Assembly (NCBI GenBank): GCA_020072965.1
Contig: JAIQFY010000008.1
Coordinates: 124,001-188,000, forward strand
Length of the DNA stretch: 64,000 nt
DNA from: Terriglobia bacterium
Lineage (GTDB): Bacteria > Acidobacteriota > Terriglobia > JAIQFV01
Reading direction: 5' to 3'
The position numbers and the translations under genes are program-made. This document shows, piece after piece, positions 32,673 to 35,878 of the stretch. Numbering within the stretch: position 1 is the first letter of the stretch; each line of letters begins with the position of its first letter. A model generated the notes under the pieces. It was not told the DNA's origin. It saw only the letters and a program-made list of their open reading frames with translations, and searched no databases.

Positions 32673-33683
32673 ATGGAAAAAATTGTCACCGCTTCTGCGC
32701 AAATCTCGAAATTGGTGGAGATACTTAGAATCTCCGACCTGCCATCGGAAGAAGATCGTCCAACTCATCCCACGCGCGATTCTCAAGGCGCTCTGCTTCT
32801 TGCCAATAGCTATTTCGCACTCGTTTCGATCTGTCATCAGACCAGCCCCCTGGGTGAGAGACGCCTGGAAGGCATTGTCGATAACGTGAAGCTGGCGGGG
32901 TGGGATTATCTGGAAGGGAAGTTCCGTTGGAAGATCCGCGAAGAGCCACAGTGGGCATCGCCTGAGTTCTGGAGAGCCCTGAGGCCGTTGGATCTATCGG
33001 GATTGTACGAGGACCCGGTATTTGGGAAAACACTGAACCGGGTGAATGAGCGTGCCCTCCTTTTGAACGACTTGGGTCAGAGACTCATGGAGCGAGGTCA
33101 CAGCAACGTCGGAGAATCATTCGATGAGTGTCGAGGCATCATCGGGGGGGATTCGGGATTTCTCGCTTTTTTAAAGACATTCGAGGCCTACAAGGACCCT
33201 GTCATGAAAAAGGCCCATCTTTTTCTGGCAATCATGGTGAGGGAACTGGGCTGGGCGATACAGGACCCTGAAAATCTGCGCTCCCCGGTGGATTACCATG
33301 AGATGAGAGGACATCTCCGGATGGGGACCCTCTTGATTCAAGACCAGCGGCTTGCTTCAAAAGTTCAAAGGGGACTTACCCTCACCGAAGAGGAAGACTG
33401 CGAGATCAGGTCGAAGATCCAGGCAGTTAACACCTTCATCAGTAATCAGACGGGATTGCGCGTGAGTGTGGTTCATTCATTATTCTGGAATTTGTTTAGA
33501 AGTTGTTGTCACCGCCTATCCAACGAAGCGCATTGTTCGGGGTGCGGGGATAGCTGCAATTTGCTTGATCGGTACAAGAAGCTGGCAATATACAAGGGCC
33601 GGTGTTTGTTTTCCGAGTTCTGCAAATCAGCGGAAAAGCCGGATAAAATTATGGAACCCCCCTATGCCGGGCATTATTACTAG
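32673..33683 (+). CDS. Unrecognised helical protein with PVDYH motif and C-terminal cysteines (possible HhH glycosylase-like fold)
   Basis: 336 residues, no signal peptide or membrane helix. I cannot name the family. It is helix-rich throughout, with few short strands. Motifs: ANSYFALVSICHQTSP (44-59), AGWDYLEGKF (75-84), DPVMKKAHLFLAIM (175-188), RSPVDYHEMRGHLRMG (203-218), and C278, C279, C288, C291, C295, C311 and C317. PVD-x-H before R is reminiscent of the PVDTH catalytic Asp region of HhH-GPD DNA glycosylases, and K179/K180 in the preceding helix could mimic their Lys. C279-x8-C288-x2-C291-x3-C295 recalls but does not match their C-x6-C-x2-C-x5-C Fe-S loop. Divergent from the SPFH gene. 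Function unknown. Confidence 0.75.
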   Translation: MEKIVTASAQISKLVEILRISDLPSEEDRPTHPTRDSQGALLLANSYFALVSICHQTSPLGERRLEGIVDNVKLAGWDYLEGKFRWKIREEPQWASPEFWRALRPLDLSGLYEDPVFGKTLNRVNERALLLNDLGQRLMERGHSNVGESFDECRGIIGGDSGFLAFLKTFEAYKDPVMKKAHLFLAIMVRELGWAIQDPENLRSPVDYHEMRGHLRMGTLLIQDQRLASKVQRGLTLTEEEDCEIRSKIQAVNTFISNQTGLRVSVVHSLFWNLFRSCCHRLSNEAHCSGCGDSCNLLDRYKKLAIYKGRCLFSEFCKSAEKPDKIMEPPYAGHYY

Positions 33684-33692
33684 GATCATAAA

Positions 33693-33942
33693 ATGTTAGG
33701 GGTCAGATCTTTCCAATTTCCAATTGAGATTTGGCGTGCTGGAAGCTCTCAGCTAAGTGCTTGTCTTTCCCCATTCTTTTTTAGTACCAAGGGATGGCCC
33801 CGGAGACGGGCACATAAGAATGTTAGGGGTCAGATCTTTCCAATTTCCAATTGAGATTTGGCGTGCTGGAAGCTCTCGGCTAAGTGCTTGTCTTTCCCCA
33901 TTCTTTCTTAGTACCAAGGGATGGCCCCGGAGACGGGCACAT
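33693..33942. repeat. Tandem direct repeat, 127-bp period, two copies
   Basis: Copies at 33693-33815 and 33820-33942 are nearly identical, with substitutions such as CTCAGC/CTCGGC and TTTTTTA/TTTCTTA. Each begins ATGTTAGGGGTCAGATCTTT and ends in GAGACGGGCACAT. The left end is the inverted counterpart of the sequence at 33963-33994, making a REPIN-like arrangement across 33693-34030. No reading frame here is convincing. Confidence 0.9.
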
Positions 33943-33962: not shown

Positions 33963-34030
33963 CTGAAATGGAGATTGGAAAGACCTGGCCCCAATCATAT
34001 TTTTGAAAGACCTGGCCCCAATCATATTTT
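33963..34030. repeat. Inverted end with short tandem duplication (27-bp period)
   Basis: GAAAGACCTGGCCCCAATCA-TATTTT occurs at 33978-34003 and again at 34005-34030. The 30 bp before and including the first copy are an inverted, imperfect match to the left end of the 127-bp repeats (GGGGTCAGATCTTTCCAATT). Together these suggest two tandem left ends and two tandem right ends of a non-autonomous repeat. Confidence 0.8.
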
Positions 34031-34070: not shown

Positions 34071-35570
34071 TCACCGGACGAGCGCTGAGCTCTGGTCGGT
34101 GCTTGATGTGGATTTATTGAGGCGGTACAGTTTCAGATCCTCCTTCTGAAAAATCACACTGCCAATCCTCTGCAAATCGGGCCACAAGCCTGAAACATGG
34201 TAAGCCCACACATACTCGTAATTTTCATGAACTTTGTTCCAATCGGGCGGGATGGAGTAATCCAGATCCCAGGAAAGATCGGGGCGGTAGACTCCGCTCT
34301 TCAGTCTTAGAGCCGCCATACCCGGCACACTCAACAGGTTCGGCAATAGCCATCCTCGGCGTATGGCCCCGTACGCCCAGAAATGATAATAGGTGCGACG
34401 AACCGGTCCATCATGGGCGCCATCAATGATCGGCAAAACGCGAGCATTCTTTGGGATCATGTCGAAGGACTGTGCCAGGCCGGTGAGTCGGGGGCCTTCC
34501 AGCAGAAAATGCTCGGTAATGTTTTCTATCCGGACAAAGAAAAGCGCCAACGCCACGAGCGCGAGCCATCGGGCACGCTTACCCACGTGGCAGAAGGAGA
34601 GAAACACAATGAACAGAAAGGGCAGGACGCGTGGGTAAATATCCCAAGCCTCGCCAAAACCCACTGGAAGGATCCAAAACAAAATGAACAAAACACCGCC
34701 TGCGACGGCCCATTCGCGATTCCATCTGAACTCCGCATTCCGCCACCACGCCAGCAGAGCACAACCTAGTAAAGCGACCAGCGTGAGCCAGCCAACCCAT
34801 GGAGAGTAGCCCCGCAAAAACCCTGTCAGCCAATCCATCTTGTCGCCGAAGCCGTCAAATAAGATTTCATGGGTGGGAGCTACTCCAAGAGGAAGCCTCA
34901 GGTAAAAGAGAATGCCCGGAAGGAACAAGAGCCAGGAGAACACGAAGTGCCGGATTGCGGTTCGCTTCCACAGCAGGTGGGCCGTGATCACGATGCCTAA
35001 CATGGCGAAGGCAAAAAGATGCGTTGCATACACCCCGGTGACGGCAGCCAATAGAACCAGCCAGCGGAAAGGGCTTGCTCGTTCCAAGAACCGGATCCAC
35101 AGCCCCAGCGCCAGGAAACACAGCGCGACACCCAAATAAAAGTTCAGATATCCATATAAGAAAAAGACATTGTAGGAGAGGAGCAAAGCCCATAAGGAGA
35201 GAGGCTCATTCCCCGGGTTTGACTGACGCAAGAAGAACCAGACGCAGAGAGGCATGGCGAGCAAACAGATGCACAAGAAAATCCGCCCCGCCCATTCCAA
35301 GGGAATTACGTGCTGCATCGCAATGAGGAATCCGTTCATGGCGAGATAGGGGTAAAAATGCCATTCCTGCCCGTAAAACTCGGAGAAGTGGAAATTCGGG
35401 TCATCAAGGTGGGTGAGTACAAAAGCCTGGGCAAGATGATTGGGATAGTCCAGGAGCGGAGGAAACTCCACCAGCCAGATGGGTAGGAGTAATAAGCCGG
35501 CGAGCAGCGCCAGGAACAGGACACGCCTGTAGCGTTGAGAACTACTTTGCATTGTCACAGCGGGGTTCAT
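34071..35570 (-). CDS. Multi-pass membrane protein, GT-C glycosyltransferase-like
   Basis: About 499 residues. The frame opens at a TTG at 35600; ATG 35570 (MNPAVTMQSSSQRY) is the better start though its ribosome site is weak. About ten membrane helices between residues 15 and 390 and a C-terminal soluble stretch. The first extracytoplasmic loop has FPPLLDYPNHLAQAFVLTHL, with acidic residues where GT-C enzymes carry their catalytic Asp/Glu, and a later YFYPYLAMNG-like segment. This resembles uncharacterised acidobacterial glycosyltransferase-like proteins, but a specific family cannot be claimed. It is divergent from the secreted hydrolase at 35879, with 308 nt between and no gene in that gap. 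Confidence 0.75.
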   Translation of the reverse strand: MNPAVTMQSSSQRYRRVLFLALLAGLLLLPIWLVEFPPLLDYPNHLAQAFVLTHLDDPNFHFSEFYGQEWHFYPYLAMNGFLIAMQHVIPLEWAGRIFLCICLLAMPLCVWFFLRQSNPGNEPLSLWALLLSYNVFFLYGYLNFYLGVALCFLALGLWIRFLERASPFRWLVLLAAVTGVYATHLFAFAMLGIVITAHLLWKRTAIRHFVFSWLLFLPGILFYLRLPLGVAPTHEILFDGFGDKMDWLTGFLRGYSPWVGWLTLVALLGCALLAWWRNAEFRWNREWAVAGGVLFILFWILPVGFGEAWDIYPRVLPFLFIVFLSFCHVGKRARWLALVALALFFVRIENITEHFLLEGPRLTGLAQSFDMIPKNARVLPIIDGAHDGPVRRTYYHFWAYGAIRRGWLLPNLLSVPGMAALRLKSGVYRPDLSWDLDYSIPPDWNKVHENYEYVWAYHVSGLWPDLQRIGSVIFQKEDLKLYRLNKSTSSTDQSSALVR

Positions 35571-35878
35571 TTGCCGAGTATTCTTCAGGCGAGCGCACAA
35601 ATCCTAAAGACTTATGGGGATGATTGCAACATTAAAGTGAAAGAAAATCTCCCGTGAGAAGATATCTGAGACATTTCCTGGTTGCTCTGCATCCGTGTTA
35701 GAATCAGGCTTCCGCTGCAAGATGAATTTCGGACTGATGGCTGCGAGCCGCAGGCTGTCGGAGGAAGCAATTCTGAATGGCTCTAACTCAATTAGAGTTT
35801 GAGCGAGATGTCTGCCTGGAATACGGGAGATGACAGTTTCGAGGGAAGAGATCAACACACTCTACTGGGGAGGTTCAG

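Follow-up and report, generated by a model that had tools for sequence, protein, structure and literature searches.

What kind of protein is encoded at positions 32673-33683 of the window, i.e., the whole 64,000-nucleotide stretch of a Terriglobia genome analyzed here? A preliminary description had been unable to name a family for it and had drawn attention to motifs that recall the HhH-GPD DNA glycosylases and the queuosine salvage protein Qng1: the lysine pair K179-K180, the segment RSPVDYHEMRG with D207, and the series C279-x8-C288-x2-C291-x3-C295. All of these are present in the protein. Translation of the window gives an ORF on the forward strand that runs from an ATG at 32673 to a stop at 33683 and encodes 336 aa, and the opposite strand of this interval is interrupted by stop codons. 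The features considered here are the following:

32673..33683 (stop included), + strand: gene for a Qng1-like protein with a four-cysteine loop, 336 aa (ORF, family alignment, AlphaFold model, Qng1 fold match)
32811..32918, + strand: N-terminal region, residues 47-82, with ICHQT and AGWDYL (alignments; conserved in the relative P0009)
33195..33212, + strand: DPVMKK, residues 175-180 (family alignment; K179 on Qng1 K199 in the profile alignment with 7u07/7u5a)
33285..33320, + strand: PVDYHEMRGHLR, residues 205-216 (family alignment; D207 on Qng1 D231 in the profile alignment with 7u07/7ulc)
33474..33488, + strand: HSLFW, residues 268-272 (alignment; positions of Qng1 D298 and W302, with His268 replacing the Asp)
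33504..33623, + strand: cysteine loop, residues 278-317 (putative tetrad C279, C288, C311 and C317; C291 and C295 within a lineage-specific insertion)

The neighboring genes are uninformative: on one side lie a Band 7 protein and a MacB-type permease, and on the other a hydrophobic protein (34071-35600, - strand, 509 aa; conserved in the same-genus genome and with no Pfam match at 1e-4). Directly 3' of the gene, a 124-bp unit is duplicated in tandem (33692-33942, copies 98% identical), and a related inverted copy of the end of this unit lies at 33963-34005; together they are perhaps a small mobile-element remnant.

That no family could be named was borne out by searches of Pfam, NCBIfam and PADLOC with the window protein, none of which returned a significant match. 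Its sole Pfam match, to DUF2400 (PF09674), is not significant (E 0.27) and covers ~50 residues of the Lys-to-PVD segment, and neither a Pfam match nor any significant sequence match to the archaeal 8-oxoguanine DNA glycosylase AGOG (PF09171) was found. Since the protein on its own does not match the Qng1 model of Pfam either (Q_salvage, PF10343), the Qng1 link depends on its relatives. A weak PADLOC match (0.043) and a PDB match to an L,D-transpeptidase (0.32) were discarded as chance, as was a match in genome G070 (L003) that falls in a repeat-type, tetratricopeptide-like protein. The sequence alone found nothing in a scan of genome contigs, phages, plasmids and viral contigs gave nothing when searched with it or with the 35-row family alignment, and an AlphaFold prediction from the single sequence (pLDDT 37.5) was not usable.

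Profile searches recovered ~45 relatives in bacteria and archaea, and a four-row alignment used as query against genome contigs found 43 loci in both domains. The window protein belongs to a widespread family that is so far without a name, for which an alignment of 35 rows (A2) was built. Within a set of 151 genomes close to that of the window, a clear match occurs only in the same-genus genome G001, a sister species in which the orthologue (~76% identical and located between the same neighboring genes) is cut down to codons 121-248 (L002:1507-1890) and is apparently a remnant. A search of the phylum revealed two remote relatives, 26-27% identical, one of which follows a PfkB kinase in a fusion protein whose C-terminal part scores above the Pfam Q_salvage threshold. 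A further relative, P0009, comes from a different family within this class; it was found with the 35-row alignment, is 40% identical over 299 residues and is the closest full-length relative. In the tree the PfkB fusions form one clade (support 100/99), and the window protein sits on a long branch whose placement the tree does not settle.

The closest known kin of the family is Qng1 and not a DNA glycosylase. When the family profile was compared with PDB sequences, Qng1 ranked first (E 2e-16, positions 11-296) and AGOG had an E of 0.024, and profile-profile alignment by hhalign to three Qng1 proteins from this phylum gave a probability of 97.9% and an E of 4e-13. Q_salvage is matched by 24 of the 35 family members (best 4e-13); relative to its curated cut-off of 25 bits, the PfkB fusion P0004 passes with 31.2 and P0009 stays below with 18.8. 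The AGOG model of Pfam is matched weakly by five members (best 5.9e-5) and DUF2400 by four (best 0.009). An AlphaFold2 model of the window protein computed from the 35-row alignment reached a pLDDT of 86.1 and a pTM of 0.88, with lower confidence (~60-78) in the cysteine loop and at the very end of the chain on the C-terminal side. In structural comparisons (Foldseek, VIA-align) this model again ranks Qng1 first (Z 26.8, 279 aligned residues, rmsd 2.9), followed by AGOG as second-best (Z 15.5), endonuclease III (1p59; Z 14.6, 205 residues) and MutY (Z ~13). The proposed distant kinship with HhH-GPD proteins and Qng1 thus holds, and the outcome named as speaking against it, a fold unrelated to HhH, did not occur. 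Qng1 (DUF2419; structures 7u07, 7u91 and 7uk3, human 7ugk) shares with the window protein the full-length fold including the N-terminal half, the Lys and Asp at K199/D231 and an aromatic C-terminal residue, but the two are only ~15% identical and Qng1 has no cysteine loop, another N-terminal pocket sequence and D298 in place of His268. That DUF2419 is structurally linked to a DNA glycosylase from Pyrobaculum has already been published (PMC4425180).

Among the family members, D175, K179, K180, D207 and R216 are invariant in 35/35 aligned rows, and H209, R212, G218, C288, C311, C317 and Y336 are nearly so; the concern that D207 and the cysteines might not be conserved has therefore not materialized. 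The roles of the Lys and the Asp in HhH-GPD enzymes and in Qng1 are known. In the profile alignment, K179 and D207 coincide with K199 and D231, respectively, of the Qng1 of Sphaerobacter thermophilus, two residues that are mutated in the deposited structures 7u5a and 7ulc. The invariance of these residues in the family shows that the motifs noted earlier did not arise by chance. AGOG (structure 1xqo), which acts on DNA, resembles the window protein in its HhH-GPD core and in a Lys and PVD-type Asp at similar long spacing, and its K140 and D172 are needed for catalysis (PMC9638937). Some other positions differ from Qng1. Two further residues of Qng1 named as belonging to its active site, D298 and W302 (PMC11592518), correspond to H268 and W272, the Trp thus being kept and the Asp replaced by His, and the C-terminal Arg common to Qng1 and the PfkB fusions is absent from the window protein. 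The N-terminal region with ICHQT and AGWDYL (residues 47-82) lies at the place of a Qng1 segment rich in D..NF.F(W) and is assumed to contribute to the base pocket.

The His268 substitution, the truncated orthologue of the sister species and a third-position G+C of 59%, compared with 65-75% in three neighboring genes, raise the question of whether the gene is decaying and no longer encodes an active enzyme in this genus. We consider this very unlikely: the frame is full-length, K179, D207, R216 and the tetrad cysteines are intact, and P0009, from another family, carries the same His. Moreover, the 128 codons retained in the sister-species remnant have a dN/dS of ~0.17 relative to the window gene, a value that indicates purifying selection across most of the divergence between the two species.

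A Qng1-like fold with both catalytic positions retained might also be read as a second queuosine hydrolase that, like Qng1, releases queuine from queuosine or its 5'-phosphate. The window's own genome, however, contains a canonical Qng1 (P0005, G000 contig C68; Q_salvage E 4e-60), and therefore the window protein is a second, different member for which queuosine is probably not the substrate. Differences from Qng1 are seen in the N-terminal pocket region, at the position of D298 and in the C-terminal Arg, and because the ICHQT/GWDYL region is unlike its Qng1 counterpart, the base is probably not queuine. In addition, the family occurs in archaea, and archaea are not known to make queuosine. 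We consider a second queuosine hydrolase very unlikely.

One departure from Qng1 is the cysteine loop. Qng1 resembles DNA glycosylases but lacks their Fe-S loop, and in an alignment with 12 Qng1 proteins of the same phylum the cysteine loop is absent from all 12. The spacing C-x6-C-x2-C-x5-C is that of endonuclease III and MutY, and it is found exactly in the Vulcanisaeta members of the family; most PfkB fusions have C-x7-C-x2-C-x5-C, and the standalone and DUF362-fused bacterial members carry an insertion between cysteines 2 and 3. Because L040-type members have just four cysteines in the loop, the tetrad can be identified, and in the window protein it would correspond to C279, C288, C311 and C317 (C-x8-C-x22-C-x5-C, with an enlarged spacer between cysteines 2 and 3), the first being C278 or C279, an adjacent pair that the automatic alignment does not distinguish. 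These four are most likely the ligands, judging by the alignment. The Fe-S-loop-like series described earlier was therefore partly right: C279 and C288 belong to the conserved tetrad, C291 and C295, which only P0009 shares with the window protein, are part of the insertion, and C311 and C317 had been missed. The family profile also matches the Fe-S loops of MutY and endonuclease III among PDB sequences (E ~1e-3 to 0.05), and the Pfam model EndIII_4Fe-2S is matched by three members. By analogy with endonuclease III, the loop would most likely hold a structural 4Fe-4S cluster. The Archaeoglobus relatives L037 and L041 retain the Lys and the Asp of PVD/PID but have no loop cysteines, which looks like a secondary loss of the cluster; a cluster thus cannot be essential to the whole family.

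An endonuclease III/MutY-type loop, AGOG as the second fold match and the five AGOG-matching members bring up the alternative that the protein is a glycosylase removing bases from DNA or RNA strands, in the manner of the repair enzymes AGOG, endonuclease III and MutY, perhaps as part of a system for modification or of a restriction-like one. DNA-methylase-type methyltransferase genes do adjoin four members of one clade, downstream and on the opposite strand (L040, L043, L044 and L047; by Pfam for L043 and L044, by sequence for the others). Fold and profile are nevertheless far nearer to Qng1, and the window protein differs from endonuclease III and MutY, which it resembles in the core fold, by its Qng1-type N-terminal half and by the lack of a Gly-x-Gly hairpin ahead of the Lys, the sequence there being EAYKDPVMKK without any glycine. 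The kinase fusions and the nucleoside-salvage neighbors of the relatives likewise argue against a polymeric substrate, and we regard this alternative as unlikely.

The surroundings of the relatives give the family a context of nucleoside metabolism. Genes for 5'-nucleotidase (L056, L064), a purine-type permease (Xan_ur_permease; L063, L064) and PNP_UDP_1 phosphorylase (L060, L063) adjoin some of the PfkB fusions, and in Vulcanisaeta the family gene is followed by DUF711 and PNP_UDP_1 genes. At L043 and L047 the family gene comes after GTP cyclohydrolase II, with a dCTP-deaminase-like gene nearby (by Pfam for L043, by sequence for L047), and at L040, L044 and L107 a TauD-type dioxygenase precedes it (by Pfam for L044 and L107, by sequence for L040). 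These five loci form one clade with a recurring cassette, whose upstream part is either the dioxygenase or the cyclohydrolase and deaminase-like pair and which includes the methyltransferase in 4/5; its makeup resembles an unnamed module for base modification or of restriction type. A co-oriented yeast-type cytosine deaminase (E ~1e-41) precedes P0009 at a distance of 26 bp, a single case; a general linkage was rejected, as the deaminase is common in the class (104/299 genomes) and has other neighbors in a same-genus genome. Two relatives are fused behind a DUF362 domain (L042:93-2099, by similarity; L045:3510-5822, Pfam 3e-27), and the gene upstream of L045 encodes a metallophosphatase that also has STAND/TPR parts and gives a PADLOC match to PDC-S60 (3e-32). 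A defense function was considered and rejected: PADLOC matched none of the family members tested, only neighboring methyltransferases and this gene upstream of L045.

In all, the window protein is probably an N-glycosidase with a 4Fe-4S-type cysteine loop that belongs to the Qng1 branch within the HhH-GPD superfamily and acts on a free nucleoside or nucleotide, probably other than queuosine. A free substrate is favored over DNA because of the Qng1-type N-terminal half, the missing Gly-x-Gly hairpin, and the fusions and neighbors of the relatives. By analogy with Qng1 and AGOG, D207 and K179 would act at C1' of the ribosyl group and cleave the bond between base and sugar; the substrate would be a free nucleoside or, with greater likelihood, its 5'-monophosphate, and the products would be the free base and ribose or ribose 5-phosphate. 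Counting against this reading are the His in place of the Qng1 Asp, the absent C-terminal Arg, the DNA-methylase-type neighbors in one clade, the Archaeoglobus members without cysteines, the modest confidence of the modeled loop and the deaminase neighbor seen only once. For the family as a whole, we give about even chances to the broader proposal of an undescribed Fe-S N-glycosidase family of bacteria and archaea in which a Qng1 body is combined with a DNA-glycosylase Fe-S loop, which acts on free nucleosides or nucleotides except queuosine and which in many lineages is coupled to PfkB in one polypeptide. Among the papers searched, no title or abstract describes PfkB-fused or Fe-S Qng1 relatives, a weak sign of novelty.

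Fusion to PfkB suggests a pathway of two steps, phosphorylation and then cleavage. With a Qng1 body and what is probably an Fe-S loop in one family, both parts are found joined in living organisms, which is relevant to the divergence of salvage hydrolases from DNA-repair glycosylases. If the proposed reading is true, this family would represent a living link from DNA-repair glycosylases to nucleotide-salvage hydrolases, and it would point to unassigned base-releasing steps by which marine bacteria and thermophilic archaea metabolize nucleosides.
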